Notes: a model not told the origin generated them from the letters alone. A DNA stretch of 64,000 nt from a virus (IMGVR_UViG_3300047312_000028:1-64000); one strand, 5' to 3'. Shown: positions 23,662 to 34,087, counted from the stretch's first letter. Program-made: numbers and translations.

Positions 23662-23737
23662 GGGGCTTTAGCTCAATTAGGAGAGCGCCTGCATGGCATG
23701 CAGGAGGCAGTGAGGGCGGAACTCACAAGCTCCACCA
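23662..23737 (+). tRNA. tRNA-Ala(GGC)
   Basis: Acceptor GGGGCTT/AAGCTCC, anticodon loop ATGGCAT, CCA encoded. T-loop GGCGGAA (G55) with AG at D-loop 18-19. Confidence 0.9.
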
Positions 23738-23743
23738 GAAAAT

Positions 23744-23819
23744 GCGCTGGTAGTCTAACTAGCAAGGCACCCACCCGATGAGTGGGTCTATGTTGGTGCA
23801 AATCCAACCCGGCGCACCA
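23744..23819 (+). tRNA. tRNA, probably Ile(GAT)
   Basis: Acceptor GCGCTGG/CCGGCGC, stem CCCAC/GTGGG, loop CCGATGA, so position 33 is C, not U. T-loop TGCAAAT (G55) with AG at 18-19. Identity tentative. Confidence 0.7.
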
Positions 23820-23828
23820 GTTTTATAT

Positions 23829-23901
23829 GGGATGAGTGTACACGGTGGCACGACTGTCTCCAAAACAGCAAGAGCGGGTTCGACTCCTGCATCCCATGCC
23901 A
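23829..23901 (+). tRNA. tRNA-Trp(CCA)
   Basis: Acceptor GGGATGA/CATCCCA, loop CTCCAAA, T-loop TTCGACT, GG in the D-loop, encoded CCA after G73. Confidence 0.85.
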
Positions 23902-23922
23902 GTTACATGAAAGGGGAATATT

Positions 23923-24450
23923 ATGTCAGCGATGACATTGCTTTTGAACAACACATACGAACCCTTACAGGTTGTCGGTTGGCAGAGAGCGATCACGTTG
24001 CTGTGGCAGGGTAAGGTTGAGGTGCTTGAAGAGCACGATGAAGAAATTCACTCAATCTCATTCAGCATGAAGATCCCTTCGGTGTTGCGGATGCTTCTTC
24101 CAGTTAAGATCAAGCGCCGAGCACCTGTGAAGTTCACTCGATTGAATATCTTCACGAGAGACGGATTCAAGTGTCAGTATTGTGCGCAAGTGTTCGAGTC
24201 AGAAGAATTGACGTTTGACCACGTGGTTCCAGTGGCGCAGGGTGGTAAGAAGACGTGGGAAAACATTGCGACGGCTTGTGTTTCGTGCAACTCAAAGAAA
24301 GAGGGTCGCACACCAGAACAAGCAAAGATGAAGCTGTTGAAGAAGCCAAGGCAGCCAATCTGGGCGCAAGTAGTCACTGTCACTGTTGGTTTGCGTAAGA
24401 CGCCTGAAACATGGACAGATTATTTGTATTGGAACACTGAGTTGAAGTAG
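23923..24450 (+). CDS. HNH endonuclease
   Basis: 175 aa. Central domain with CQYC, then FDHVVPVAQGG (DH-type HNH motif), W..N and a CVSCN pair: a zinc-stabilised HNH nuclease of the bacterial McrA-like type. Inserted in the tRNA array. AAAGGGG upstream. It may be a free-standing mobile endonuclease or a packaging-type nuclease. Confidence 0.85.
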   Translation: MSAMTLLLNNTYEPLQVVGWQRAITLLWQGKVEVLEEHDEEIHSISFSMKIPSVLRMLLPVKIKRRAPVKFTRLNIFTRDGFKCQYCAQVFESEELTFDHVVPVAQGGKKTWENIATACVSCNSKKEGRTPEQAKMKLLKKPRQPIWAQVVTVTVGLRKTPETWTDYLYWNTELK

Positions 24451-24455
24451 AGTTT

Positions 24456-24530
24456 GCCCGCTAAGAATAGATAGCGATTTGGCTGTTTTGTAAGCAGCAG
24501 AGGTCGGCGCAAGTCCGACAGTGGGCTCCA
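24456..24530 (+). tRNA. tRNA-Thr(TGT)
   Basis: Acceptor GCCCGCT/AGTGGGC, loop TTTGTAA, T-loop CGCAAGT (G55), AG at 18-19, CCA encoded. Confidence 0.9.
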
Positions 24531-24540
24531 GTTTTTCCGA

Positions 24541-24640
24541 TTTGAAGTTATTCTAGATATACTTCAATAAGGGGACATGTTTGCGGGGTTAACATGTAAA
24601 ATAACCCCGACATTTTCTAGTTTCTATGGAGACTAGATCA
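24541..24640 (+). other. Hairpin-rich spacer with two mutually exclusive stems
   Basis: GAAGT/ACTTC (24544, 24561). ACATGTT/AACATGT (24575, 24591) competes with CGGGGTTA/TAACCCCG (24584, 24602). TCTAGT/ACTAGA (24616, 24632). Looks like a switchable spacer or degenerate RNA gene. Confidence 0.4.
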
Positions 24641-24643
24641 GAT

Positions 24644-24718
24644 GTGGTCGTAGCTTAAGCAGTAAAGCGCCTGTCTGTGGAACAGGTTAAGTGAGTGCAA
24701 GTCTCACCGATCACCCCA
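24644..24718 (+). tRNA. tRNA-His(GTG)
   Basis: Acceptor GTGGTCG/CGATCAC, C73, loop CTGTGGA, T-loop TGCAAGT (G55), AG at 18-19. The base before G1 is T, so the G-1 typical of bacterial tRNA-His is not encoded. Confidence 0.85.
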
Positions 24719-24723
24719 CGGCG

Positions 24724-24936
24724 CCGCCAGCCGGACCTCTAAGAGCAATCCGGTTCCTCACAAGGAATAAATGGCGGGATTGATGCAGTAGAGTTCCTGG
24801 GTGGGGCATGTTTTTGTTTTTTCGAGCGTGACCGAAAGGTCACACCAAGCCCCTTACTTGGTGGCCGAGAAAGTGAATCGGCGTCGGTCATGTATCGACG
24901 GGTTTACTTTAGAGTTCTGGGTGGGGGATTGATTTT
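24724..24936 (+). ncRNA. Two consecutive structured RNAs sharing a 3' motif
   Basis: First: CCGCCA/TGGCGG encloses AGCCGGA/TCCGGTT and TTCCT/AGGAA, then TAGAGTTCCTGGGTGGGG (24789) and a T-rich tract. Second: four consecutive hairpins (GTGACC-GAAA-GGTCAC, CACCAAG/CTTGGTG, GCCGA/TCGGC, GTCG/CGAC), then TAGAGTTCTGGGTGGGG (24910). No coding frame; no RNA family recognised. Confidence 0.5.
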
Positions 24937-25010
24937 GGGTCCTAGGTGTTGAAGGAGCACTCGCGGTTTGCATCCGCGCGGGGAGGGAGCATTACCCTCA
25001 GGATCCACCA
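24937..25010 (+). tRNA. tRNA-Ala(TGC)
   Basis: Acceptor GGGTCCT/AGGATCC, loop TTTGCAT, T-stem GAGGG/CCCTC with loop AGCATTA (G55), AG at 18-19. Confidence 0.85.
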
Positions 25011-25026
25011 GTTCAGTAGAGATGAA

Positions 25027-25101
25027 GGGCCTTTAGTATATTCAGGAATACACCGTCCTCGCACGACGGAGCGCCGAGAGCGAAGCTCGGAAGGTCCACC
25101 A
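25027..25101 (+). tRNA. tRNA-Ala(CGC)
   Basis: Acceptor GGGCCTT/AAGGTCC, loop CTCGCAC, T-loop AGCGAAG (G55), AG at 18-19. Confidence 0.85.
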
Positions 25102-25175
25102 CTTGCTCCCGCACAACCGCTATGGTGGTGTCTCTAGAGCCAGCTAGAGTTAGAGAGCGGGTCATTAAGAATTAT

Positions 25176-25250
25176 CTAGGTGTGGGTCAATGGAAGACCA
25201 CCCCGTTTGGGGCGGGGACCATGCAGGTTCGAGTCCTGTCACCTAGACCA
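25176..25250 (+). tRNA. tRNA-Pro(TGG)
   Basis: Acceptor CTAGGTG/CACCTAG, C1-G72 and A73 as in Pro tRNAs, loop TTTGGGG, T-loop TTCGAGT, GG in the D-loop. The 74 nt before it (25102-25175) hold hairpins but no gene. Confidence 0.9.
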
Positions 25251-25319
25251 GCAACTCGGCAACAACCTCGACGGAGGCGCCTTCACGGTTGGGTGAAGTT
25301 AGAGAGCCGGCTAAGAGCA

Positions 25320-25384
25320 GCGGAAGGTGTGAGTTCGATTCTCACATGACCGACGGGTCATTAGTTTAATGGCAGAACGTCCGC
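25320..25384 (+). tRNA. Circularly permuted tRNA candidate
   Basis: 3' half first: GCGGA (25320), variable loop AGGT, T-arm GTGAG-TTCGATT-CTCAC, acceptor strand ATGACC. A 4-nt linker GACG follows. Then the 5' half: GGTCAT (25356), TA, D-arm GTTT-AATGGCA-GAAC, G26 and TCCGC (25380). TCCGC pairs with GCGGA and GGTCAT with ATGACC, so all four arms form only if the gene is read as permuted at the anticodon loop. Anticodon not deducible. Confidence 0.65.
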
Positions 25385-25394
25385 GTCGAAATAC

Positions 25395-25469
25395 GCTCCC
25401 ATCGAATAGTGGCTAGTTCGCCTGCCTTTCAAGCAGGAAAAGAGAGATCGATACTCTCTGGGAGCACCA
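25395..25469 (+). tRNA. tRNA-Glu(TTC)
   Basis: Acceptor GCTCCCA/TGGGAGC, stem CCTGC/GCAGG, loop CTTTCAA, T-loop ATCGATA, GG in the D-loop. Confidence 0.9.
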
Positions 25470-25488
25470 GTTCACAGGAGACTTTATC

Positions 25489-25716
25489 ATGAAGAAAGCG
25501 AAAGATTATAATTACGAGAGCGACATTATCACCACTCCCGATCCGATTTATCGCATTGGGCAGGTAGTGAAGATTCAAGAGAATTGGTTCGATGTGTTTA
25601 GAGTGCAGTATGTTGTATGGAACACATTGAAGTCTTCGTGGTCATATGCGTTAGTAAGTTCACATGTAAATATAAGTGGTATTCTTGAGAACCACATTCG
25701 ACCAATAAACATGTAG
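25489..25716 (+). CDS. Unknown small protein
   Basis: 75 aa, beta-rich with a basic N-terminus (YRIGQVVKIQENWFDVFRVQ), SH3/KOW-like by pattern. The last base of its TAG is the first base of the following tRNA. Confidence 0.6.
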   Translation: MKKAKDYNYESDIITTPDPIYRIGQVVKIQENWFDVFRVQYVVWNTLKSSWSYALVSSHVNISGILENHIRPINM

Positions 25717-25793
25717 CCATTGTGAAGGGAATTGGCATACCTATTCGTTCGAGAAGCGAATGTTTGGGAGTTCGAGTCTCCCCAATGGCACCA
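25716..25793 (+). tRNA. tRNA-Leu(GAG)
   Basis: Acceptor GCCATTG/CAATGGC, A73, stem TTCGT/GCGAA, loop TCGAGAA, so C33. Variable loop only 5 nt (TGTTT), unusual for Leu. Same D-arm as the other three Leu genes. Confidence 0.8.
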
Positions 25794-25800
25794 GGAAGGA

Positions 25801-25876
25801 GTGTATATCGGCGACTGACATATCTGGCGCGAAAAGCTGTGATTATACACGGTCACAGAGTCAGTGCGGTATACAC
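25801..25876 (+). ncRNA. tRNA-sized rod-like RNA
   Basis: Nested stems GTGTATA/TATACAC, ACTGAC/GTCAGT and CTGTGA/TCACAG enclose a 10-nt loop. Sits in a tRNA slot but has no D/T-arm motifs or CCA. Confidence 0.4.
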
Positions 25877-25887
25877 AAGAAATTATC

Positions 25888-26220
25888 ATGATAGAACGTG
25901 GCGATAAATTATACGTTGTGACTCGGGAAGATTTGTCCCCTGGCTATCAGGCTGTACAAAGTATCCATGCAGCACAAGAATTCGCGTATCAGTTTCCTAC
26001 ACTCTTCAAAGAGTGGCATGAACGATCAAACTTTCTTGGATTGTTGTCTGTTAAGAACGAAAAAGAATTAAGAAGTTTAGCGATTAGAGCGGCAAATCGA
26101 AGGTTGGCAGTCGCTATGTTTTACGAACCTGATATTGATTGGAAGTTAACCGCGATTGCGATTGAAGCGGGAAGCAAATCAGCAACGTTGTGCAAGAGAA
26201 TTCGATTAGCATTAAGCTAA
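25888..26220 (+). CDS. Peptidyl-tRNA hydrolase 2-like protein
   Basis: 110 aa from ATG 25888. LYVVTREDLSPGYQAVQSIHAA resembles the Pth2 N-terminus (strand, R-x-DL-x-x-G-x-x-A-x-Q-x-x-HA), and the rest matches the family size of 115-120 aa. Pth2 frees tRNA from stalled peptidyl-tRNA. It lies inside the tRNA array, consistent with tRNA recycling. Assignment from pattern only. Confidence 0.6.
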   Translation: MIERGDKLYVVTREDLSPGYQAVQSIHAAQEFAYQFPTLFKEWHERSNFLGLLSVKNEKELRSLAIRAANRRLAVAMFYEPDIDWKLTAIAIEAGSKSATLCKRIRLALS

Positions 26221-26225
26221 GTTAT

Positions 26226-26303
26226 AGCAGGGTAGACTGGAGAGACCAGCATGGGCCTCATAAGCCTATCGACAGTAGGCGCACTACCTACTCCCCGCTA
26301 CCA
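26226..26303 (+). tRNA. tRNA-Met(CAT)
   Basis: Acceptor AGCAGGG/CCCCGCT with one mismatch, loop CTCATAA, T-loop CGCACTA (G55), D-loop AGAGA. Initiator or elongator not decided. Confidence 0.75.
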
Positions 26304-26308
26304 GTTAC

Positions 26309-26382
26309 GCCGGTACAGTCTGGGATACTCAGATGCTTTCATAAGGCATTCTGTGAGGGTTCGATTCCCTCTATCGGCACCA
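26309..26382 (+). tRNA. tRNA with CAT anticodon (Met or Ile2)
   Basis: Acceptor GCCGGTA/TATCGGC, stem ATGCT/GGCAT, loop TTCATAA, T-loop TTCGATT. Could be elongator Met or a lysidine-modified Ile tRNA. Confidence 0.85.
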
Positions 26383-26388
26383 GTGAAA

Positions 26389-26466
26389 GCCGTTGTGAAG
26401 GGAATTGGCATACCTACTACGCTTAGAACGTAGTGCTTAGGAGTTCGAGTCTCCTCAACGGCACCA
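26389..26466 (+). tRNA. tRNA-Leu(TAG)
   Basis: Acceptor GCCGTTG/CAACGGC, stem CTACG/CGTAG, loop CTTAGAA, 5-nt variable loop TGCTT, T-loop TTCGAGT. Confidence 0.85.
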
Positions 26467-26549
26467 GTTATCCGAGGCCCCTCAATTACTGAGACACCGA
26501 GGGGATAATGAAGGTGTGGAGTTAGTAACGCTTTCACTCGATGTTTTTT

Positions 26550-26639
26550 GCACCTGACCCTTGATAGGGAGAGCGGTTTTATAAGCCGGTCGCACTAGAT
26601 CAGTGCCTTGACTGGGTTTGATTCCCAGCAGGTGTACCA
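26550..26639 (+). tRNA. Type II tRNA, anticodon probably TAT (Ile?)
   Basis: Acceptor GCACCTG/CAGGTGT, loop TTTATAA flanked by a 4-bp stem, long variable arm GCACT/AGTGC. T-loop TTTGATT (U56) with GA in the D-loop. A long arm with this anticodon is odd; identity uncertain. The 83 nt before it contain TTATCC/GGATAA and CCTC/GAGG hairpins but no gene. Confidence 0.6.
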
Positions 26640-26724
26640 GTAGACTATATTATGCTGAAACAAAGAAATTCAAGAATGCAAGGAAATGTTGGTAAGAAAG
26701 GTTATGGAGAGTTTTTGATTTGAC

Positions 26725-26808
26725 GCATGTGTAGTCCCGTACGGCGCGGGGGCCGCCTGTAAAGCGGTTGCTAATACCCAGTAGGTTCGATTCCTACCAT
26801 ATGCACCA
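26725..26808 (+). tRNA. tRNA-Tyr(GTA)
   Basis: Acceptor GCATGTG/CATATGC, loop CTGTAAA, extended variable region, T-loop TTCGATT, GG in the D-loop. Confidence 0.9.
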
Positions 26809-26822
26809 GTTAAGGAGTTTTC

Positions 26823-26960
26823 ATGGGAAGAGTCTACAGGCGCAAACGAAGAAGTTGTCCGATGTGCAAGCCTAATAAGACTGGACAAGAACCCAGATGG
26901 ACTCCTCAAGAGTATCAGAAGATTAAGCAGATGGAAAAGGAAGCCAGAGAAGAGAAATAA
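26823..26960 (+). CDS. Small basic Zn-knuckle-like protein
   Basis: 45 aa: RKRRSCPMCKPNK then a helical Lys/Glu tail. AAGGAG upstream. Single CxxC pair; role unknown. Confidence 0.6.
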   Translation: MGRVYRRKRRSCPMCKPNKTGQEPRWTPQEYQKIKQMEKEAREEK

Positions 26961-26962
26961 TT

Positions 26963-27038
26963 GCGCCTGGAGTCTGTAAGATGGACGCTTGATTGTCAAT
27001 CAAGAATGAAGCGGGAGCATTACCCGTCGGGCGCGCCA
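26963..27038 (+). tRNA. tRNA-Asp(GTC)
   Basis: Acceptor GCGCCTG/CGGGCGC, G73, stem CTTGA/TCAAG, loop TTGTCAA, T-loop AGCATTA (G55), AG at 18-19. Confidence 0.9.
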
Positions 27039-27044
27039 GTATAT

Positions 27045-27121
27045 GTTGCGGTAACCAAGAGGCCTAAGGTGACTGCCTGCAAAGCAGTTCTTCGTGGGTT
27101 CGACTCCCACCCGCAACTCCA
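27045..27121 (+). tRNA. tRNA-Cys(GCA)
   Basis: Acceptor GTTGCGG/CCGCAAC, T73, stem ACTGC/GCAGT, loop CTGCAAA, T-loop TTCGACT. Confidence 0.9.
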
Positions 27122-27125
27122 GTTT

Positions 27126-27212
27126 GGAAGAGGACCAGTGCAGGGTAGCTGAACCGGTTGCTAACCGGATTGAGGGTAACACCTTGGGGTTCGAGTCCTC
27201 CCTCTTCCGCCA
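27126..27212 (+). tRNA. tRNA-Ser(GCT)
   Basis: Acceptor GGAAGAG/CTCTTCC, G73, loop TTGCTAA, long variable arm, T-loop TTCGAGT, GG in the D-loop. Confidence 0.9.
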
Positions 27213-27216
27213 GTTT

Positions 27217-27276
27217 GCTAGAGGTCAGTACGTGCAGGAGAAGCGGAAGCGGGACCAAAGGAACGCTACCTCTAGC
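27217..27276 (+). ncRNA. tRNA-like RNA without T-arm
   Basis: 60 nt closed by GCTAGAG/CTCTAGC, with an inner AGCG/CGCT. No CCA, anticodon or T-arm. It lies between two tRNA-Ser genes. Confidence 0.35.
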
Positions 27277-27284
27277 ATGAGTTT

Positions 27285-27371
27285 GGAGAGTGAACAGTGC
27301 AGGGTAACTGAACCGTCTCGAAAGCGGATTGAGGGTAACACTTTGGGGTTCGAGTCCTCCGCTCTCCGCCA
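27285..27371 (+). tRNA. tRNA-Ser(CGA)
   Basis: Acceptor GGAGAGT/GCTCTCC, loop CTCGAAA, long variable arm nearly identical to Ser(GCT), T-loop TTCGAGT. Confidence 0.9.
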
Positions 27372-27380
27372 GTAATATAT

Positions 27381-27488
27381 CGGAGGGTAGCTCAACTCTA
27401 GAGCACTAGCCATGGGGAAGATCATGCTTAAACACCATGCTCCCCTATGTGGTTGGTTATGGTGGTGAAAATCCATCCTCTCTGACCA
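27381..27488 (+). tRNA. tRNA-Pro(GGG) with 32-nt intron-like insert
   Basis: 108 nt. Acceptor CGGAGGG/CCTCTCTG region, A73, D-arm GCTC/GAGC, anticodon stem TAGCC (27407-27411) and GGTTG (27451-27455), T-arm with loop TGAAAAT. Between the stem halves lie 39 nt instead of 7: ATGGGGA then about 32 nt (27419-27450). GGGGA/TCCCC and CATG/CATG pair inside the insert, leaving bulges on opposite strands as in archaeal bulge-helix-bulge introns. Removing the insert gives loop ATGGGGA. Confidence 0.65.
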
Positions 27489-27497
27489 GAACGTTTT

Positions 27498-27573
27498 CGG
27501 AGGATCGTTCAATTCTAGGACACCACCCACATGTGGGGTGGAAATGTTGGTGCAAATCCAGCTTCTCTGACCA
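27498..27573 (+). tRNA. Pro-like tRNA with unclear anticodon
   Basis: 76 nt. Acceptor CGGAGGA/TTCTCTG and A73 resemble tRNA-Pro(GGG). Stem CACCC/GGGTG leaves loop ACATGTG (C33, formal anticodon ATG), within a perfect palindrome CCCACATGTGGG. T-loop TGCAAAT (G55). Functional identity unknown. Confidence 0.6.
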
Positions 27574-27577
27574 ATTT

Positions 27578-27667
27578 GGAGGTGTGACAGAGCCCGGCCT
27601 ATTGTGCCCCGTTGGAAACGGGTGCGATGTAACAGTCACAGAGGTTCAAATCCTCTCACCTCCGCCA
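27578..27667 (+). tRNA. tRNA-Ser(GGA)
   Basis: Acceptor GGAGGTG/CACCTCC, G73, loop TTGGAAA, long variable arm, T-loop TTCAAAT, GG in the D-loop. Confidence 0.9.
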
Positions 27668-27678
27668 GTAAGGAAGTA

Positions 27679-27768
27679 ATGAGTTTGAAACAAGTGCTCT
27701 TGTTTTTCGGAGCCGCAGTTCTCATGGGAATTGTACTTGCGATAACAGAGATTCTGAAAATGCAATAA
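27679..27768 (+). CDS. Small membrane protein
   Basis: 29 aa; one transmembrane helix. AAGGAAG upstream. Lies between two tRNA-Ser genes. Confidence 0.45.
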   Translation: MSLKQVLLFFGAAVLMGIVLAITEILKMQ

Positions 27769-27769
27769 T

Positions 27770-27857
27770 GGAGAGCGAATCGTAGAAGCCGCGAACCCGT
27801 TTTGAAAGCGGTGGGACGTGTCAAAGCGTTGGGGTGCAAGTCCTCCGCTCTCCGCCA
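27770..27857 (+). tRNA. tRNA-Ser(TGA)
   Basis: Acceptor GGAGAGC/GCTCTCC, loop TTTGAAA, long variable arm, T-loop TGCAAGT (G55) with AG in the D-loop, unlike the other three Ser tRNAs. Confidence 0.9.
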
Positions 27858-27859
27858 GC

Positions 27860-27965
27860 TTGTGCCGTATGCCGACGGGCATCGAACACTTTGGTTGAGC
27901 GTCAGGTTCTTGCTAGCAGGGAATCTGATAGACGCCAGAGGGAAGTGTTGCTACACACGGCACAA
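27860..27965 (+). ncRNA. Candidate multi-branched RNA
   Basis: Closed by a perfect 9-bp stem TTGTGCCGT/ACGGCACAA. Inside: TGCC-GACG-GGCA and AACACTT/AAGTGTT (27885, 27943) with GCGTC/GACGC nested. 106 nt, no recognised family. Confidence 0.5.
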
Positions 27966-27987
27966 TGTTTTCGCTAGAGGAGTTATT

Positions 27988-28443: not shown

Positions 28444-28444
28444 T

Positions 28445-28796
28445 GGGGGTGACCAGCATCGACAGAGAAAACTAGAGAAGATCAGTTCATGCCAGGGAAT
28501 AGGACCCTGTAAAAACTTATAAAACACGAAGCGTCGAACAACCTCAAAGGGAGTTTGCCCTAGCCGCATAAGTGCGACTCGTTGAACCGCCTAAGCTTGT
28601 ATAGCGGGGAAGCGTCATATCACAAGCTAGCTGGCTCGGTTGAGTGGGTGGTGATAGACCGAAGCGCGAAAACATAACCACTGACTTCTGGAAGGTGTTG
28701 TCGTTCCCTCTTCCAGTCGCAAGCTGAACGACTAGCATGGAATACTACTTCAACAGTATCTTTGGACCGGAGTTGCAATACTCCGCACCTCCACCA
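28445..28796 (+). ncRNA. ssrA: Transfer-messenger RNA (tmRNA)
   Basis: 352 nt. The ends form the tRNA-like domain: GGGGGTG pairs with CACCTCC, followed by ACCA. A reading frame ends GAG TTT GCC CTA GCC GCA TAA (28551-28571), encoding the typical EFALAA tag end; resume codon perhaps GAA at 28536, giving EQPQREFALAA. The D-loop reads CAGCATCGAC where bacterial tmRNAs have GG, and the T-loop contains TGC, matching the A18/G55 tRNA variant. Host SmpB would be needed. Confidence 0.9.
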
Positions 28797-28810
28797 GTGA
28801 AAGAGTTATG

Positions 28811-28883
28811 GCCCTGTAGTATAACAGAAATACGGCTGGCTTTGAACCAGCAGTCCAAGGGGCGGCACCTTGCGGGGCTACCA
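28811..28883 (+). tRNA. tRNA-Gln(TTG)
   Basis: Acceptor GGCCCTG/CGGGGCT, stem GCTGG/CCAGC, loop CTTTGAA, T-loop GGCGGCA (G55), AG at 18-19. Confidence 0.85.
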
Positions 28884-28894
28884 TTTAGGAGAGT

Positions 28895-29401
28895 ATGAGA
28901 GTTTTTGTGACAGCCGATACACATTTTAGTCATGCAGGCATCTGTAAGTTCTTGAATGACGATGGATCGAAGTTGAGACCCTGGGATGATCCCGCTGAGA
29001 TGGACGAAGAGATGGTAAAGCGTTGGAACGAGACCGTCCGCCCCATTGATAAAGTCTATCACCTGGGAGATGTAGTTATCAATCGTCGAGCATTGCCATT
29101 GCTGAATCGATTGAACGGGGACAAAGTTTTGATTCGTGGCAATCATGACATTTTCAAGTTGAATGATTATCTGAAGTATTTTCGAGACGTGCGCAGCTAT
29201 CATGTGTTTGATAGGTTGATTTTTTCACATATCCCTATCCATCCTGAGAGTAAGGGACGTTTCATTGGGAATGTGCATGGACATACGCACGTAAGAAGCC
29301 TGAAAGATCCATGGTATCAGTGCGTGTGTGTTGAGCAAACAGACTATCGACCGATTGCCGTAGAAGAGATTTTGAAGAGAGTTAAAGTTATTGGGGATTA
29401 G
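28895..29401 (+). CDS. Calcineurin-like metallophosphoesterase
   Basis: 168 aa. TADTHFSH, HLGDVV, RGNHD and GHTH are the metal-binding motifs of this family in order. Common in phages; substrate unknown. Its TAG is formed by positions 8-10 of the next tRNA. Confidence 0.85.
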   Translation: MRVFVTADTHFSHAGICKFLNDDGSKLRPWDDPAEMDEEMVKRWNETVRPIDKVYHLGDVVINRRALPLLNRLNGDKVLIRGNHDIFKLNDYLKYFRDVRSYHVFDRLIFSHIPIHPESKGRFIGNVHGHTHVRSLKDPWYQCVCVEQTDYRPIAVEEILKRVKVIGD

Positions 29402-29465
29402 CAAAACGGCCATGCAGCGGACTCTGAATCCGCCTAACAAGGTTCAACTCCTTGATCCCCAGCCA
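29392..29465 (+). tRNA. tRNA-Gln(CTG)
   Basis: Acceptor TGGGGAT/ATCCCCA, G73, stem GCGGA/TCCGC, loop CTCTGAA, T-loop TTCAACT, GG in the D-loop. Overlaps the upstream gene by 10 nt. Confidence 0.9.
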
Positions 29466-29488
29466 GTACATAAGTTGTAGGAGATTAT

Positions 29489-29566
29489 TCCGGTCGAGCC
29501 ATCAGGGTGAGGGCGCCCGCCTGTTAAGCGGGAACAAGTCACGTTCGATCCGTGAGACCGGAGCCA
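29489..29566 (+). tRNA. tRNA-Asn(GTT)
   Basis: Acceptor TCCGGTC/GACCGGA, stem CCCGC/GCGGG, loop CTGTTAA, T-loop TTCGATC, GG in the D-loop. Confidence 0.9.
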
Positions 29567-29570
29567 GTTT

Positions 29571-29644
29571 GCCCCAATAGCTCAATAGAAGAGCGGTCGG
29601 CTGAAGACCGACACACCGTGGTGCGATTCCACGTTGGGGCGCCA
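29571..29644 (+). tRNA. tRNA-Phe(GAA)
   Basis: Acceptor GCCCCAA/TTGGGGC, stem GTCGG/CCGAC, loop CTGAAGA, T-loop TGCGATT (G55), AG at 18-19. Confidence 0.9.
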
Positions 29645-29648
29645 GTAT

Positions 29649-29723
29649 GCGGTCGTGGCAGAATAGCTATGCACCTCGTTGCCAACGAGGACGAAGTGGG
29701 CGCAAGTCCCATCGACCGCTCCA
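29649..29723 (+). tRNA. tRNA-Gly(GCC)
   Basis: Acceptor GCGGTCG/CGACCGC, T73, stem CCTCG/CGAGG, loop TTGCCAA, T-loop CGCAAGT (G55), AG at 18-19. Confidence 0.9.
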
Positions 29724-29871
29724 GTGTCGTGTCGCAGATAGAAGTGAGTGGCCACCTTCTACAAACTCCGCCGCCAGTGCGGAGATTGCAGTTTAGCGGA
29801 GGTACCCCGCGGGAACACTAACTGAACGCACCAGGAGCCCTTGGCCGAGGATCCTGGCCTGTGAAATCCTG
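29724..29871 (+). other. Structured spacer in the tRNA array
   Basis: TAGAAG/CTTCTA, CTCCGC/GCGGAG and a CCCGCGGG palindrome lie within weak closing bases, followed by CCAGGA/TCCTGG. No tRNA or protein gene; possibly one or two structured RNAs. Confidence 0.35.
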
Positions 29872-29887
29872 TGACATGCTTAAATAT

Positions 29888-29963
29888 GCGGGTCTAGTGT
29901 TCAACAGCAGCACCACTGGCTTCCAACCAGTTAGTACGAGTGCAATTCTCGTGACCCGCTCCA
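29888..29963 (+). tRNA. tRNA-Gly(TCC)
   Basis: Acceptor GCGGGTC/GACCCGC, stem ACTGG/CCAGT, loop CTTCCAA, T-loop TGCAATT (G55), AG at 18-19. Confidence 0.9.
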
Positions 29964-29979
29964 GTAACTATGAGGTCAT

Positions 29980-30330
29980 ATGAATAGACGAACGTTCTTA
30001 AAAGTGTTACTTGGCACCGCGGCTGTTCTTGTGATTAACCCCGTCAAGGTGTTATCAGAGAATGCCCCGATAGCTCCGGTAGTCGATAAGATTCCAGCAG
30101 TAAAGATGCCAGTAGAGAATCCGGTAGTGTCAGTTGTATCGATGACAAGAATTGAGCCTAGGCTTATCGATATAGTCAAGACACATTATCCTGATATGAT
30201 AGCGCACCAGATTTGTAGTGTGCAACCAATGACGGCACCGACTGGTCAGATTTTTGCGCAATATGTACCTATGTACCGCGTCCGCGTACATCGTCTGCCG
30301 TGGTACAAGAGAGTGTTTAGAAATATTTAA
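29980..30330 (+). CDS. Predicted Tat-exported protein
   Basis: 116 aa. MNRRTFLKVLLGTAAVLVI is a twin-arginine signal (RRxFLK plus hydrophobic core). The mature part is Pro/Val-rich without known domain. A phage protein using the host Tat route is uncommon. The stop is directly followed by a tRNA. Confidence 0.6.
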   Translation: MNRRTFLKVLLGTAAVLVINPVKVLSENAPIAPVVDKIPAVKMPVENPVVSVVSMTRIEPRLIDIVKTHYPDMIAHQICSVQPMTAPTGQIFAQYVPMYRVRVHRLPWYKRVFRNI

Positions 30331-30405
30331 CAGGCTGTGGGTCAAAAGGTGACTACTCCCTTCGGAGGGGAGACCATGCTGGTGCGAGTCCAGCCAGCCT
30401 GACCA
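30331..30405 (+). tRNA. tRNA-Pro(CGG)
   Basis: Acceptor CAGGCTG/CAGCCTG, A73, stem CTCCC/GGGAG, loop TTCGGAG, T-loop TGCGAGT (G55), AG in the D-loop. Confidence 0.9.
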
Positions 30406-30409
30406 GTTC

Positions 30410-30484
30410 GCTCCTTAAGTGTAGATAGCGACACACGGCTTTCGTAAAGCTGAAAGATCGGCGCAAATCCGATAAGGAGCTCCA
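30410..30484 (+). tRNA. tRNA-Thr(CGT)
   Basis: Acceptor GCTCCTT/AAGGAGC, stem CGGCT/AGCTG, loop TTCGTAA, T-loop CGCAAAT (G55), AG at 18-19. Confidence 0.85.
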
Positions 30485-30489
30485 GTAAC

Positions 30490-30567
30490 GCCGTTGTGAA
30501 GGGAATTGGCATACCTGGGTCGCTTAAAACGATTCGCTTGTGGGTTCGACTCCCACCAACGGCACCA
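30490..30567 (+). tRNA. tRNA-Leu(TAA)
   Basis: Acceptor GCCGTTG/CAACGGC, loop CTTAAAA, 5-nt variable loop CGCTT, T-loop TTCGACT. Confidence 0.85.
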
Positions 30568-30580
30568 TTGAGGATATATT

Positions 30581-30760
30581 ATGAATGACCAAGAGAGAAT
30601 AGAGAAGTTAGAGACTGCACTCAAAGAATGTATTCATACGTTTGATTATCTTGTGTTTCATCGTACCGCTGATATGGATAAGTTCCTCGTGAATGATTTG
30701 GTTCCTGAACGAGGTATCAAAGAAACTGGATTGCAGGCGCGTAGAGCATTATTGAAATGA
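30581..30760 (+). CDS. Unknown small protein
   Basis: 59 aa, helical; its C-terminal ARRALLK resembles that of the gene at 36558. Overlaps the next gene by 4 nt. Confidence 0.55.
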   Translation: MNDQERIEKLETALKECIHTFDYLVFHRTADMDKFLVNDLVPERGIKETGLQARRALLK

Positions 30761-30948
30761 TTACAGAAGAAGAGTGGGACATTCAGTTTGACCGTGAATA
30801 TGATGAAATTGTATTCGAGTGCTCCGCTGCACCTTTATTGATTTCTCACGAGGCTGATAAGATAATTCTTAAGAGGCAGATCAAGGCAAGGGCGAATATG
30901 CCATTCCCTTGGCCCCATGAAGACGGAGATAGAATTCTTTCATTATGA
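30757..30948 (+). CDS. Unknown small acidic protein
   Basis: 63 aa, Glu/Asp-rich. ATGA overlaps on both sides. Nothing recognised. Confidence 0.55.
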   Translation: MITEEEWDIQFDREYDEIVFECSAAPLLISHEADKIILKRQIKARANMPFPWPHEDGDRILSL

Positions 30949-31196
30949 AAACAGTGAAGAACAAAGAGTATTCGTTTCAGCACACGAAAGCGCGACTGAA
31001 AGAACGTTACGGACTGGAGTTGCACCGGGACGAGTACAACACGATTTGCCAGAACACGAAAGCGATGCAGGGTGTCTTGGAATTGTGCGGTGAGAAGAAG
31101 CAGAAGGTCGTTAAGTGTTTTTTCAAAGGAAAGATTGTCACGTTTGTATACGGATTAGGTTGTGATTATGTCACAACAGCGTTACCGCCGAAGTGA
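30945..31196 (+). CDS. Unknown small protein
   Basis: 83 aa; FQHTKARLKERYGLELHRDEY resembles small phage or toxin-like domains with an HAxxRxxER-type start (uncertain). Its TGA is positions 8-10 of the next tRNA. Confidence 0.55.
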   Translation: MKTVKNKEYSFQHTKARLKERYGLELHRDEYNTICQNTKAMQGVLELCGEKKQKVVKCFFKGKIVTFVYGLGCDYVTTALPPK

Positions 31197-31264
31197 TTGC
31201 AATTGGCAGACATAGCTGATTCAAAACCAGCTTCTTGTGGGTTCGAGTCCCACCTTCGGCACCA
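31187..31264 (+). tRNA. tRNA-Leu(CAA)
   Basis: Acceptor GCCGAAG/CTTCGGC, loop TTCAAAA on a stem with one mismatch, 5-nt variable loop TTCTT, T-loop TTCGAGT. Overlaps the upstream gene by 10 nt. Confidence 0.8.
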
Positions 31265-31311
31265 GTGCGTAGATTAGAGTGGTTATTCCCCGCAAACCGG
31301 GAGCCTATATT

Positions 31312-31497
31312 ATGAGTGATCGGAATAACGTCGATCTAGCAATCATGTTGCTAGAGGAGAATAAGAAGATTCTGATTGAGTATTTGAGTCTAAAAGCCAC
31401 CGAACATGATTGGCACGGAGTGTCAGACGCGGCGAACGATATTCGAGTGATCGAAGCAAAGGTAGAAGTCTTCAAGAAGTTGCTTGAAAGAATGTGA
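31312..31497 (+). CDS. Unknown small helical protein
   Basis: 61 aa from ATG 31312, helical. Its stop overlaps the first bases of the RNase P RNA gene. The 47 nt before it resemble a truncated tRNA 5' part. Confidence 0.55.
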   Translation: MSDRNNVDLAIMLLEENKKILIEYLSLKATEHDWHGVSDAANDIRVIEAKVEVFKKLLERM

Positions 31498-31794
31498 GTC
31501 CGATAATTCGTTGCTGGTGACCTCCCTTGACCGGGAGTGATCCAGAGGAAAGTCGGCGCACCTAGAACAGGGTAGTGGCTAACGGCCACCCGGAGCAATC
31601 CGAGGATTAGAGACACAGTGACGAGGATCCCGAAAGGGTGAAGTGAAACGATCAATCTCTACCTGGTGCAACTCCAAATAAGCCGGTGTACTGTTCGTAC
31701 ACGACCCGGCGGGTAGGAGGCTTGAGCTTCATAGTAATATGAAGTCTAGAGAAATAACGAATCTAGACAGAACGCCGCTTATCGTTGGACTCAC
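31494..31794 (+). ncRNA. rnpB: RNase P RNA, type A
   Basis: About 301 nt. P1 is GTGAGTCC/GGACTCAC plus GATAA/TTATC. Conserved blocks occur in order: GAGGAAAGTC, GAGACACAGTGACGAG, AGGGTGAAGTGAAACG, GGGTAGGAGGCTTGAGC (E. coli: GGGTAGGCTGCTTGAGC) and ACAGAACGCCGCTTATCG (E. coli: ACAGAACCCGGCTTATCG). Smaller than E. coli M1 RNA (377 nt). No RnpA gene was seen in the window, so host protein is probably used to process the phage tRNAs. Confidence 0.93.
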
Positions 31795-31811
31795 TAAATA
31801 ATGGAGCAGTT

Positions 31812-32246
31812 ATGGCAATCACTGAGTTTCAAGGCGAGTATCGTTGGTTGAGTAACTTTGCACCATCTGTTGTAGATTATGAGTGGGTAAATTATCCAAC
31901 AGTTGAGAATGCGTACCAAGCAGCTAAGACGGCAAATCCCGAAGATAGAATACAGTTTGTGTCAGTGACTCCTGGACAAGCCAAGCGCCTTGGTAAGACG
32001 ATTCAGTTAAGATCAAATTGGGACGAATATAAGCATTGTGTGATGGGTGGGCTTCTTTACCAGAAGTTTTCAGAAGAACCTTTTAGGGGACTACTATTAG
32101 CAACTGGGGATCAAGAGTTGATTGAAGGAAATCATTGGGGAGACACCTATTGGGGAGTTTGTAAAGGTGTCGGTGAGAATTGGCTCGGCAAAACAATCAT
32201 GCAAGTTCGAGATAAATTAAAAGAAGAGTTATCGCTCCTTAAGTAG
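31812..32246 (+). CDS. NADAR (YbiA-like) domain protein
   Basis: 144 aa from ATG 31812 (GGAGC upstream). WLSNFAPS, Y-x-TVENAYQAAK and GNHWGDTYWGVC are hallmarks of NADAR/YbiA proteins, which act on riboflavin intermediates or ADP-ribosyl groups. A role against NAD- or ADP-ribose-based defence is inferred. Its TAG lies inside the next tRNA. Confidence 0.85.
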   Translation: MAITEFQGEYRWLSNFAPSVVDYEWVNYPTVENAYQAAKTANPEDRIQFVSVTPGQAKRLGKTIQLRSNWDEYKHCVMGGLLYQKFSEEPFRGLLLATGDQELIEGNHWGDTYWGVCKGVGENWLGKTIMQVRDKLKEELSLLK

Positions 32247-32310
32247 AGGTAGTTGACACGCCACTTTGGTAAAGTGGAAACGGTTGGTGCAAGTCCAACA
32301 AGGAGCTCCA
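32234..32310 (+). tRNA. tRNA-Thr(GGT)
   Basis: Acceptor GCTCCTT/AAGGAGC, stem CCACT/AGTGG, loop TTGGTAA, T-loop TGCAAGT (G55). Overlaps the NADAR gene by 13 nt. Confidence 0.9.
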
Positions 32311-32317
32311 GTAGAAC

Positions 32318-32392
32318 GCACGATGGGCAGGAAAGATATGCACCACTCCTACAAAGTGGACTAAGAAGGGGCAGTACCTTCATCGTGCACCA
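32318..32392 (+). tRNA. tRNA-Val(TAC)
   Basis: Acceptor GCACGAT/ATCGTGC, stem CCACT/AGTGG, loop CCTACAA (C33), T-loop GGCAGTA (G55), AG at 18-19. Confidence 0.8.
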
Positions 32393-32397
32393 TATGT

Positions 32398-32437
32398 ACA
32401 GCGGGTATGATAACGATACCGGTAAATAATTGCTGTG
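32398..32437 (+). other. Small hairpin element
   Basis: ACAGC/GCTGT closes a loop holding GGTAT-6 nt-ATACC. Too short for a tRNA; sits between two tRNA genes. Confidence 0.3.
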
Positions 32438-32448
32438 CAGAAATATAT

Positions 32449-32526
32449 GTCCTTGTGGGGAAGCCTGCAAATCCCGCCTCCCTGCGAAGGAGGAGATCGG
32501 TGGTTGAAATCCACCCAAGGACACCA
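32449..32526 (+). tRNA. tRNA-Arg(GCG)
   Basis: Acceptor GTCCTTG/CAAGGAC, stem CCTCC/GGAGG, loop CTGCGAA, T-loop TTGAAAT (G56) with GC in the D-loop, a compensated 19-56 pair. Confidence 0.85.
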
Positions 32527-32530
32527 GTAT

Positions 32531-32606
32531 GCAGTCGTGACTAGAGAGGCCATAGACCCGGCTCTTAACCGGGACCACGTGGGTTCGATTCCCACCGACT
32601 GCACCA
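32531..32606 (+). tRNA. tRNA-Lys(CTT)
   Basis: Acceptor GCAGTCG/CGACTGC, stem CCCGG/CCGGG, loop CTCTTAA, T-loop TTCGATT, GG in the D-loop. Confidence 0.9.
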
Positions 32607-32611
32607 GCGAC

Positions 32612-32686
32612 GGACCGCAAAATTTAGTAGATGATTACCTGGCTTTTAACCAGGGGAACCGGGTGCAATTCCTGGGCGGTCCACCA
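32612..32686 (+). tRNA. tRNA-Lys(TTT)
   Basis: Acceptor GGACCGC/GCGGTCC, stem CCTGG/CCAGG, loop CTTTTAA, T-loop TGCAATT (G55), AG at 18-19. Confidence 0.9.
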
Positions 32687-32690
32687 GTTC

Positions 32691-32764
32691 GCTCCCATAG
32701 ATTATCAGTAGATCGCTAGATTCTCAATCTAGAGAGCCGGGGGCAGCACCCGGTGGGAGCACCA
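32691..32764 (+). tRNA. tRNA-Glu(CTC)
   Basis: Acceptor GCTCCCA/TGGGAGC, stem CTAGA/TCTAG, loop TTCTCAA, T-loop GGCAGCA (G55), AG at 18-19. Confidence 0.9.
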
Positions 32765-32775
32765 TACGAGGGTAG

Positions 32776-32834
32776 TGTGTGAGTCGGATTATGCCGGGTG
32801 CGCACCCGTTGAGGTTCGACTCCTCTTTCATACA
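32776..32834 (+). ncRNA. tRNA-like RNA with T-arm but minimal anticodon arm
   Basis: TGTGTGAG pairs with TTTCATACA. A proper T-arm (GAGG-TTCGACT-CCTC) is present, but CGGGT-GCGC-ACCCG replaces the anticodon arm with a 4-nt loop. No CCA. Confidence 0.4.
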
Positions 32835-32852
32835 TTGCCTGACTAGAAATAT

Positions 32853-32928
32853 CTCTCTGTACGTCAACTGGAAGACTACCTCGCTTCTAACGAGGAGGAT
32901 GGGGGTTCAAATCCCTCCAGGGAGACCA
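32853..32928 (+). tRNA. tRNA-Arg(TCT)
   Basis: Acceptor CTCTCTG/CAGGGAG, A73, stem CCTCG/CGAGG, loop CTTCTAA, T-loop TTCAAAT, GG in the D-loop. Confidence 0.9.
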
Positions 32929-32933
32929 GTAAC

Positions 32934-33001
32934 GTGCCCTTCAAGTTCAAAGCTTGCGAATCCCGAAAGGGAAAGTGACTGAATAAGTCGAGGGCGCTCC
33001 A
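32934..33001 (+). ncRNA. Anticodon-less tRNA-like RNA with encoded CCA
   Basis: 68 nt. Acceptor GTGCCCT/AGGGCGC with T73 and CCA, D-arm-like AAG..CTT, and TCCC-GAAA-GGGA in place of the anticodon arm (a GNRA tetraloop). A shortened T-arm GACT-GAATA-AGTC. It cannot decode codons. Confidence 0.55.
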
Positions 33002-33021
33002 AATTCATTATGGAGATTTTT

Positions 33022-33327
33022 ATGTCGATGCGTAATGAAGTCTACTATTATAGTGGCACAGATTGCATGGGGAATCCCTATTCAACCTGGCAACAGTATA
33101 GAATTTGTTCCGATGGTAGAGGCGTCATAGGAGTCGGTGCCACCGCAGAACAGGCAGTTGCAGAAACCGACAAATTGGTTCAAGAGCGAGAGACGTACCT
33201 AGCCAAGTCAGATGTAGAGCGTTTGGCGATTCTTTTGGAGAATGAAAATTTGCTCCAAACGGACATGAACGAAACCGTGCATCTTATCGGAAAGATATTG
33301 TTAGAGAAATATGCCGTCGTAGTTTAA
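33022..33327 (+). CDS. Unknown protein
   Basis: 101 aa from ATG 33022 (GGAG upstream); an in-frame ATG at 33010 adds four residues. GTDCMGNPYSTWQQY and a helical C-terminus. Its TAA lies inside the next tRNA. Confidence 0.55.
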   Translation: MSMRNEVYYYSGTDCMGNPYSTWQQYRICSDGRGVIGVGATAEQAVAETDKLVQERETYLAKSDVERLAILLENENLLQTDMNETVHLIGKILLEKYAVVV

Positions 33328-33389
33328 CTGAACAAAACGACCCTCTCCTAAAGGGTAGACTGCGGGTTTGAGTCCCGCCGGTGGCACCA
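33313..33389 (+). tRNA. tRNA-Arg(CCT)
   Basis: Acceptor GCCGTCG/CGGTGGC, stem ACCCT/AGGGT, loop CTCCTAA, T-loop TTTGAGT (U56) with GA in the D-loop, a compensated 19-56 pair. Overlaps the upstream gene by 15 nt. Confidence 0.85.
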
Positions 33390-33399
33390 TGAGGATATT

Positions 33400-33765
33400 A
33401 TGATTTTCGTGTTCGGCTCGAATCTTGCAGGCAGACACGGGAAAGGTGCTGCACTCTTTGCTCGAAAAAACTATGGAGCAAAACTCGGTGTTGGTCGTGG
33501 GCGCACTGGTAACGCATATGCGATTCCTACTAAAGACGCTGATTTGAGACCCCTGGCTCTTTTGCAGATAGAACGAGAGGTCAATGATTTCCTCTCTTAT
33601 GCAATCGCGCACATGGATGAAAAATTCTTAGTGACTAAGATCGGATGTGGATTAGCTGGGTATACGAACGAACAGATTGCTCCCTTCTTTCACGATGCCC
33701 CTGTGAATTGTTTAATCGACGAAGAGTGGCAGAAGATTATAGGAGATTTTGATAACTCCCTGTGA
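33400..33765 (+). CDS. Macro-domain-like protein
   Basis: 121 aa. FVFGSNLAGRHGKGAALFA at the N-terminus, then AYAIPTKD and VTKIGCGLAGY, the layout of small phage macro-like (A1S_2505-type) proteins thought to bind ADP-ribose or related ligands. Neighbour of NADAR. Its TGA is formed by tRNA positions 8-10. Confidence 0.7.
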   Translation: MIFVFGSNLAGRHGKGAALFARKNYGAKLGVGRGRTGNAYAIPTKDADLRPLALLQIEREVNDFLSYAIAHMDEKFLVTKIGCGLAGYTNEQIAPFFHDAPVNCLIDEEWQKIIGDFDNSL

Positions 33766-33833
33766 TGACAATTGGAAGTCACCGTGGTTTCGACCCACGG
33801 AACATGCAGGTTCGAGTCCTGTCAGGGAGACCA
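33756..33833 (+). tRNA. tRNA-Arg(TCG)
   Basis: Acceptor CTCCCTG/CAGGGAG, stem CGTGG/CCACG, loop TTTCGAC, T-loop TTCGAGT, GG in the D-loop. Overlaps the upstream gene by 10 nt. Confidence 0.9.
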
Positions 33834-33846
33834 GTTAGAGGTGAAT

Positions 33847-34023
33847 ATGTTTTGGCATGGTTGTCGTGGGTGTGGATGGATGACAGAACCTAACGTGGCA
33901 GGTGTGATGACAAACCGCGATAGTCGCTGTCAATTCTGTAACTACTTTCCTGTTTCGGTTTTTGATGGAACAGCAGAAGAACACGAAGATATGAGAAAGA
34001 ACGGGCTAATAGAGGACCCTTAG
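33847..34023 (+). CDS. Small zinc-ribbon-like protein
   Basis: 58 aa from ATG 33847 (GAGGTG upstream): CRGCGW and CQFCNYF pairs suggest one zinc site. Its TAG is tRNA positions 8-10. Confidence 0.6.
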   Translation: MFWHGCRGCGWMTEPNVAGVMTNRDSRCQFCNYFPVSVFDGTAEEHEDMRKNGLIEDP

Positions 34024-34087
34024 TTCATTAGCAGAACACTGCTTTGACATGGCGGAGAGACAGGAGCGTAACCTGTAGGGTTCACCA
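34014..34087 (+). tRNA. tRNA-Val(GAC)
   Basis: Acceptor GGACCCT/AGGGTTC, loop TTGACAT, T-loop AGCGTAA (G55), AG at 18-19. Its D-arm closely resembles that of the permuted tRNA. Last tRNA of the island. Confidence 0.85.

Follow-up and report, generated by a model that had tools for sequence, protein, structure and literature searches.

Elbow positions in a viral tRNA array

The window analysed here (IMGVR_UViG_3300047312_000028:1-64000) is the whole 64 kb stretch, taken out of a 176 kb virus record and with a G+C content of 46%; its 23.6-34.1 kb region is a tRNA array that also holds a transfer-messenger RNA (tmRNA) and a class A RNase P RNA (Table 1). Our subject is the elbow of these tRNAs, at positions 18 and 19 of the D-loop and 55 and 56 of the T-loop, where half of them carry A18 and G55 (A18/G55) in place of G18 and U55 (G18/U55), the uridine that TruB converts to pseudouridine (Psi55). 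The window further contains T4-type tail, baseplate and single-strand DNA-binding genes as well as an RtcB-like ligase and a DNA ligase. Judged by the single-strand DNA-binding protein (gp32), Pelagibacter phage HTVC008M and cyanophages come closest among isolates, with about 50% identity, and a search of isolate phages for a close DNA match to the window found none.

ARAGORN reported 28 tRNAs in the window. A cloverleaf and CCA scan, which is not fully blind owing to small score bonuses for T8, T54, C56 and A58 and which overlooks arrays without encoded CCA, found 40, and a blind scan for stems and U33 that ignored loop bases 8, 14, 15, 18-21, 48 and 54-60 found 37, or 36 with an added requirement for purine 37. 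With two Met tRNAs (26226 and 26309) placed by hand, we tabulated 42 tRNAs having the four-stem cloverleaf, U33 and 7-nucleotide (nt) anticodon and T loops of elongator tRNAs. Three tRNA-like copies were counted apart: an insertion-bearing one at 27381, a truncated one at 32764 and a permuted, YrlA-like one (Table 1). An earlier note on this DNA had given 44 tRNAs, which is close to our 42 and three aberrant copies.

Among the 42 tRNAs, A18 accompanied G55 in 21 and G18 accompanied U55 in 21, with no mixed case (Fisher 3.7e-12), leaving 21/42 without the canonical G18 and U/Psi55 elbow. Positions 19 and 56 formed a Watson-Crick pair in 42/42 (G-C, A-U or C-G as read): every one of the 21 G55 tRNAs read A18 G19, and among the 21 U55 tRNAs the 19-56 pair was G-C in 18, A-U in the TAT tRNA and Arg-CCT, and C-G in Arg-GCG. 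Counting only labels assigned blind gave 17 AG/G55 and 14 GG/U55, with neither AG/U55 nor GG/G55. Several G55 D-loops contain AGG, and the 18-19 register there is a choice that we set by hand, as we did for the odd tRNAs at 26226, 27498, 26550, 31187 and 25716; a register-free count of GG anywhere in the D-loop gave P=0.0013. In the RF00005 alignment, Gln-TTG has A on column 18 and G on column 19.

The tmRNA combines a UUGCAAUA T-loop with CGACAG where the consensus has CGACgG. The earlier note had described this variant, the matching of G55 by D-loop AG in half of the tRNAs and the three compensated 19-56 tRNAs, and all of these read as claimed; its placement of AG at 18-19 was borne out by the Rfam alignment of the one tRNA aligned (Gln-TTG), and covariation at 18-55 and 19-56 exceeded chance both in the window and in the viral D-arm scans below. 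Its Pro(GGG) tRNA with G55 and A56 is not secure, as the Pro tRNA with G55 at 30331 has a CGG anticodon and the best candidate, at 27381, bears an insertion. That copy has an ACCA end, its insertion lies within or near the anticodon arm and its T-loop by eye may read TGAAAAT (G55, A56); it is probably the Pro(GGG) of the earlier note, and is possibly an intron-containing or decayed copy.

Positions 54 and 58, which the earlier note did not list, vary jointly as well: 54-58 pairs other than U-A in the window were G-G (4), A-U (3), C-A (3), A-A (2) and C-C (1). In T-loops of the GGCRG.. and AGCRT.. types, in the window and related loci, 54 and 58 covary, and base 60 mostly becomes A where 54-58 is not U-A. 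Position 8 is A or G, not U, in the G55 tRNAs at 24456, 24937, 26963, 30410 and 32612, so the 8-14 contact may be altered too.

Switches and converted sets in other viruses and in cells

To keep the T-arm without influence on selection, we scanned IMG/VR with exact D-arms only and counted unique good cloverleafs, in samples among the matches listed. The G18G19 D-arm TAGCTCAGNGGNAGAGC (n=169) was followed by U55 in 166, C55 in 3 and G55 in none, with C56 in all 169, whereas the A18G19 D-arm TAGCTCAGNAGNAGAGC (n=61) was followed by G55 in 60 and U55 in 1. With the G18A19 D-arm TAGCTCAGNGANAGAGC (n=62), base 56 was U in 43, C in 16 and A in 3; with TAGCTCAGNGCNAGAGC (n=7) it was C in 4, G in 2 and A in 1. 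A stem-only scan of 5.97 Mb yielded 2841 unique tRNAs against 51 decoy hits in reversed sequence. The viral bystander tRNAs in it were GG/U55 in 1844 cases, AG/G55 in 183, AG/U55 in 11 and GG/G55 in 8, and 8/8 of the last group have AGG in the D-loop, where an A18G19 register is possible. A18/G55 made up 8% of all viral bystanders, 2.5% at loci chosen by a canonical D-arm and 24% at those chosen by an A18 D-arm, shares that depend on sampling because some loci were fetched for holding an A18 tRNA. The form clusters strongly by virus. Cultured carriers are Streptomyces phage Jay2Jay (tRNA-His), Erythrobacter phage XM05 and Erythrobacter phage vB_EliS-L02 (tRNA-Val); the stretches scanned of isolates HyRo, Wakanda, S-CAM7 and pSt2308 held no A18/G55 tRNA.

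These scans bear on whether the variant is an artefact of decayed tRNA genes or a misread D-loop register, a reading prompted by the ambiguous AGG loops and by the performance of ARAGORN, which detected 20/21 U55 tRNAs in the window versus 8/21 G55 tRNAs (13 missed). The stems are well paired, decoy hits are few, AG falls at 18-19 in the Rfam alignment, D-arm-only scans of independent contigs agree, and orthologs exist on chromosomes. On the D-arm scans, decoy counts and Rfam alignment we rejected the artefact or pseudogene reading, which is extremely improbable.

Comparison with same-anticodon orthologs in the nearest relatives, with identity measured outside the loops, revealed switches (D-loop/T-loop). 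Pro-TGG reads AATGGAA/TTCGAGT in the window and AAGAGTG/TGCGAAT in L068 (96% identical outside the loops), Glu-CTC reads ATCAGTA/GGCAGCA versus ACTGGCTA/ATCGATA in L068 (92%), and Asp-GTC reads GTAAGAT/AGCATTA versus GTAGGAT/ATCGTTA in L072 (87%). The direction varies, with the window phage holding either state depending on the tRNA. The 19-56 pair switches likewise, from window to relative: C-G to A-U in Arg-GCG (L068), A-U to C-G in Arg-CCT (L069) and A-U to G-C in the TAT tRNA (L068).

Confinement of the swap to phages was ruled out by cellular hits, which include the tRNA-Phe of many SAR11 bacteria and, in some of their genomes, tRNA-His. An A18 D-arm in cellular genome contigs was accompanied by G55 in 33/38 good cloverleafs, from contigs that include SAR11, Chloroflexi, candidate-phylum bacteria, Micrarchaeota and Woesearchaeota archaea, and actinomycetes. 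Each of 20 SAR11 loci examined has an A18/G55 Phe tRNA, and three of them also have a nearby A18/G55 His tRNA. Separately, streptomycete tRNA-Gly(TCC) genes (L128, L136, L144, L146, L170, L210 and L231) are A18/G55 with an apparently bulged T-stem, for example CAGTGTGCGATTCCTGT. An origin of the phage tRNAs in, or their adaptation to, hosts that have A18-G55 in tRNAs of their own would fit the Phe and His tRNAs of some SAR11 bacteria and the nearest isolate by gp32 being a Pelagibacter phage, albeit at 51% identity only. Such host matching is nevertheless very improbable, given that Phe was the sole A18/G55 tRNA among those found in the one, partial SAR11 genome sampled and that orthologous phage tRNAs differ in state between close relatives.

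Some viruses carry the form throughout. With G55 loops containing AGG treated as A18G19, viral contig G023 has A18/G55 in 34/35 tRNAs (one C55, no U55) and viral contig G024 in 31/33. By locus, nearly all or most tRNAs are A18/G55 in viral contigs L630, L631 and L633 (34/35 in L630, with no U55). In G023, 17/33 alternative tRNAs have as their closest match a canonical tRNA for the same amino acid, compared with 6% by chance, and many lineages therefore seem to have switched in parallel. At the level of sequence, these comparisons establish that positions 18 and 55 vary in concert, that viral tRNAs and certain chromosomal ones have changed state again and again among close relatives, and that conversion can extend to the entire tRNA set of a virus.

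The main rival explanation as to cause is neutral compensatory switching, in which G18-U55 and A18-G55 would be of similar quality and phage tRNAs, being weakly constrained, would drift from one to the other via a short-lived mismatch with no advantage. Close relatives that switch in both directions, the variability of 54-58, 19-56 and position 8, the lack of any rule in the mixture within one array and the switching of single cellular chromosomal tRNAs all speak for it. Near-complete conversion of G023 and G024 across separate lineages is hard to reach by drift, however, and clustering by virus is strong (2.5% versus 24% of bystanders); we consider neutrality somewhat unlikely.

Features of the array

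Table 1. Positions of tRNAs and other RNA features in the window. Basis: ARA, ARAGORN; CCA, cloverleaf and CCA scan; blind, loop-blind stem scan.
Feature	Position	Strand	Elbow and loops	Basis
tRNA-Ala(GGC)	23662..23737	+	A18/G55; T-loop GGCGGAA; D-loop AATTAGGA	CCA, blind
tRNA-Ile(GAT)	23744..23819	+	A18/G55; T-loop TGCAAAT	ARA, CCA
tRNA-Trp(CCA)	23827..23901	+	G18/U55	ARA, CCA
tRNA-Thr(TGT)	24456..24530	+	A18/G55; T-loop CGCAAGT	CCA, blind
tRNA-His(GTG)	24644..24718	+	A18/G55; T-loop TGCAAGT	ARA, CCA
tRNA-Ala(TGC)	24937..25010	+	A18/G55; T-loop AGCATTA	CCA, blind
tRNA-Ala(CGC)	25027..25101	+	A18/G55; T-loop AGCGAAG	ARA, CCA
tRNA-Pro(TGG)	25176..25250	+	G18/U55; L068 ortholog A18/G55	ARA, CCA
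Permuted, YrlA-like RNA	~25290-25395	+		
tRNA-Glu(TTC)	25395..25469	+	G18/U55; A54-A58	ARA, CCA
tRNA-Leu(GAG)	25716..25793	+	G18/U55	ARA, CCA
CAT-anticodon tRNA	26226..26303	+	G55; T-loop CGCACTA	hand-placed; D-loop register by hand
tRNA-Met(CAT)	26309..26382	+	G18/U55	ARA, hand-placed
tRNA-Leu(TAG)	26389..26466	+	G18/U55	ARA, CCA
TAT-anticodon tRNA, long variable arm	26550..26639	+	U55; A19-U56; L068 ortholog G19-C56	CCA; register by hand
tRNA-Tyr(GTA)	26725..26808	+	G18/U55	ARA, CCA
tRNA-Asp(GTC)	26963..27038	+	A18/G55; T-loop AGCATTA; L072 ortholog G18/U55	CCA
tRNA-Cys(GCA)	27045..27121	+	G18/U55	ARA, CCA
tRNA-Ser(GCT)	27126..27212	+	G18/U55	ARA, CCA
tRNA-Ser(CGA)	27285..27371	+	G18/U55	ARA, CCA
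Insertion-bearing tRNA-like copy	27381-27488	+		
Anticodon-uncertain tRNA	27498..27573	+	G55; T-loop TGCAAAT; D-loop CAATTCTAGGAC	CCA, blind; AG hand-read
tRNA-Ser(GGA)	27578..27667	+	G18/U55	ARA, CCA
tRNA-Ser(TGA)	27770..27857	+	A18/G55; T-loop TGCAAGT	CCA, blind
tmRNA	28445..28796	+	T-loop UUGCAAUA; D-loop CGACAG	
tRNA-Gln(TTG)	28810..28883	+	A18/G55; T-loop GGCGGCA	CCA, Rfam alignment
tRNA-Gln(CTG)	29392..29465	+	G18/U55	ARA, CCA
tRNA-Asn(GTT)	29489..29566	+	G18/U55	ARA, CCA
tRNA-Phe(GAA)	29571..29644	+	A18/G55; T-loop TGCGATT	ARA, CCA
tRNA-Gly(GCC)	29649..29723	+	A18/G55; T-loop CGCAAGT	ARA, CCA
tRNA-Gly(TCC)	29888..29963	+	A18/G55; T-loop TGCAATT	ARA, CCA
tRNA-Pro(CGG)	30331..30405	+	A18/G55; T-loop TGCGAGT	ARA, CCA
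tRNA-Thr(CGT)	30410..30484	+	A18/G55; T-loop CGCAAAT	CCA, blind
tRNA-Leu(TAA)	30490..30567	+	G18/U55	ARA, CCA
tRNA-Leu(CAA)	31187..31264	+	G18/U55	ARA, CCA
Class A RNase P RNA, inside tRNA array	31495-31797	+		176.6 bits
tRNA-Thr(GGT)	32234..32310	+	A18/G55; T-loop TGCAAGT	CCA, blind, ortholog comparison
tRNA-Val(TAC)	32318..32392	+	A18/G55; T-loop GGCAGTA	CCA
tRNA-Arg(GCG)	32449..32526	+	U55; compensated C19-G56; L068 ortholog A19-U56	ARA, CCA
tRNA-Lys(CTT)	32531..32606	+	G18/U55	ARA, CCA
tRNA-Lys(TTT)	32612..32686	+	A18/G55; T-loop TGCAATT	CCA, blind
tRNA-Glu(CTC)	32691..32764	+	A18/G55; T-loop GGCAGCA; L068 ortholog G18/U55	CCA
tRNA-Arg(TCT)	32853..32928	+	G18/U55	ARA, CCA
tRNA-Arg(CCT)	33313..33389	+	U55; compensated A19-U56; L069 relative C19-G56	ARA, CCA
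tRNA-Arg(TCG)	33756..33833	+	G18/U55	ARA, CCA
tRNA-Val(GAC)	34014..34087	+	A18/G55; T-loop AGCGTAA	ARA, CCA

The nearest relative also has an RNase P RNA (L068 8741-9070, - strand, 191.1 bits), and co-adaptation of the phage-encoded RNase P RNA to the changed elbow is conceivable. The permuted RNA runs in the order T-arm, closed acceptor hairpin, D-arm; its YrlA match is weak (27.2 bits, below cut-off), and a Ro/TROVE protein to accompany it was looked for in the virus record and not found. By annotation, a Ro-like RNA-binding protein gene lies amid the tRNA genes of Streptomyces phage Jay2Jay (L108 15531-17180). Several Leu tRNAs, in the window (30490 and 31187) and in L630 and L631, read with a variable loop of just 4-6 nt instead of the usual long arm.

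A putative alternative elbow and its possible causes

Phage tRNAs probably have two interchangeable elbows, of which the A18-G55 one would be a composite GNRA fold. The standard elbow has residue 18 intercalated between 57 and 58 and a pair between 19 and 56 (PMC4810234); in the textbook picture, G18 slips into the T-loop and bonds Psi55. In the alternative, A18 would enter the same gap and pair with G55, and G55-C56-R57 and the outside A18 would together build a composite GNRA fold on a T-loop of UGNRA type, with G19-C56 still paired and G18-Psi55 replaced without pseudouridine. UGNRA lonepair triloops are closed by a U-A pair and commonly take up an A from outside, which completes a composite GNRA tetraloop (PMC2258182). 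The purine that GNRA requires at base 57 is present in 210/210 alternative tRNAs. Three things we infer: the three-dimensional geometry, full activity in translation and why the form is favoured. The earlier note had proposed selection for an alternative elbow: compensatory changes far above chance do point to such an elbow, whereas the purpose it suggested, escape from host tRNA-targeting enzymes or TruB, is no more than a possibility; present also in SAR11 chromosomes and in contigs of other cellular groups, the swap is not a mark specific to phages.

The likeliest reason for the swap, which we hold tentatively and at rather less than even chances, is that no Psi55, and hence no TruB step, would be needed, which would suit tRNAs produced in bulk during infection. 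The TruB site is certainly lost in G55 tRNAs, because G55 cannot be pseudouridylated, and it is plausible that the elbow is independent of TruB; a search for TruB in phage records G000, G001, G023 and G024 found none. Among 60 SAR11-family genomes, the A18 D-arm was present by pattern in 35, held by the Phe tRNA at a single locus, and TruB in 14 others (hypergeometric 2.6e-7), and the Phe tRNAs read from TruB-positive SAR11 genomes were all G18/U55.

Several observations weigh against this account of structure and cause. The 54-58 pair in the 210 alternative tRNAs was U-A in 107, G-G in 46, A-U in 40, C-A in 10 and A-A in 5, and the roughly half of alternative T-loops without U54-A58 are not plain UGNRA motifs. 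Pressure towards the form is not uniform, given that G024 and G025, two strongly converted viruses, have tmRNAs with TTCGA and that half of the window tRNAs retain U55. In a tree of HisD-like proteins the TruB-positive SAR11 form one clade, so that the SAR11 exclusion amounts to about one contrast, and we rejected it as a set of many independent cases. The TruB-positive SAR11 genome G040 has an A18/G55 tRNA-His (AGTTAGTTA/TGCAACT, versus AGTTGGTTA/TTCGAAT in relatives), and most non-SAR11 bacteria with an A18/G55 tRNA have TruB. With TruB present in 4/7 cellular genomes of one set and 8/12 of another, and with the G040 tRNA-His, a requirement for TruB loss was ruled out.

A different advantage would be escape or self-marking, in which the altered elbow would keep phage tRNAs from being recognised by an enzyme that depends on U55 or the normal elbow; such an enzyme could belong to a tRNA-targeting defence or a quality-control path of the host, or be one with which the phage breaks down host tRNAs. 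Consistent with this are the conversion of whole arrays in some viruses, clustering by virus and the removal of the TruB target by G55. We regard escape as unlikely nonetheless, in view of the U55 kept by half of the window tRNAs and by the tmRNAs of converted viruses, the same form in SAR11 chromosomal tRNAs, and the failure to identify a matching enzyme. We also consider it unlikely that position 55 serves as a switchable identity mark, by which near-whole tRNA sets of some phages would fold without host pseudouridylation and unseen by elbow-reading enzymes; phage and host tRNAs could thereby be kept apart in the infected cell.

Psi55 has been called universally conserved (PMC4810234) and the G18-Psi55 contact invariant (PMC6337575). 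The literature searched, from which most subscription papers, those on mutant selection in the tRNA D and T loops among them, were absent, contained no report of an A18-G55 elbow, and an earlier description is possible. A supposedly invariant part of tRNA appears to have a working, reversible alternative without pseudouridine, a natural variant that makes two questions testable: the role of Psi55 and TruB, and a possible marking by phages of their own tRNAs as distinct from those of the host. Since tRNA finders lean on G18-Psi55, and given the unequal detection of U55 and G55 tRNAs by ARAGORN, viral tRNA counts based on that program may be low.

Like the phage tRNAs, the staphylococcal peptidoglycan tRNA-Gly has G55, with GUGC replacing GTPsiC; it is without the normal D-loop partner and has a cell-wall role, whereas the phage tRNAs keep A18 G19 and serve many amino acids. 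The A18/G55 tRNAs share with the canonical elbow the cloverleaf, an intercalating position 18, G19-C56 in most and a 54-58 closing position, but A18/G55 replaces G18/Psi55, the TruB uridine is gone and 54-58 is often G-G or A-U. A further likeness is the UGNRA type R1 lonepair triloop, or T-loop with an outside A, which PMC2258182 names in connection with the TPP riboswitch: those T-loops that read U54-G55-C56-R57-A58 match it and an outside A18 is available, although the phage case would lie in a tRNA elbow, with its middle N also paired with base 19, and swaps with a UUCRA plus G form among orthologous tRNAs. Mitochondrial and tRNA-Pyl-type tRNAs (PMC4810234, PMC6337575) depart from G18-Psi55 as well, but they lose or rearrange the D/T contact, whereas covariation indicates that the phage tRNAs keep a replaced one.

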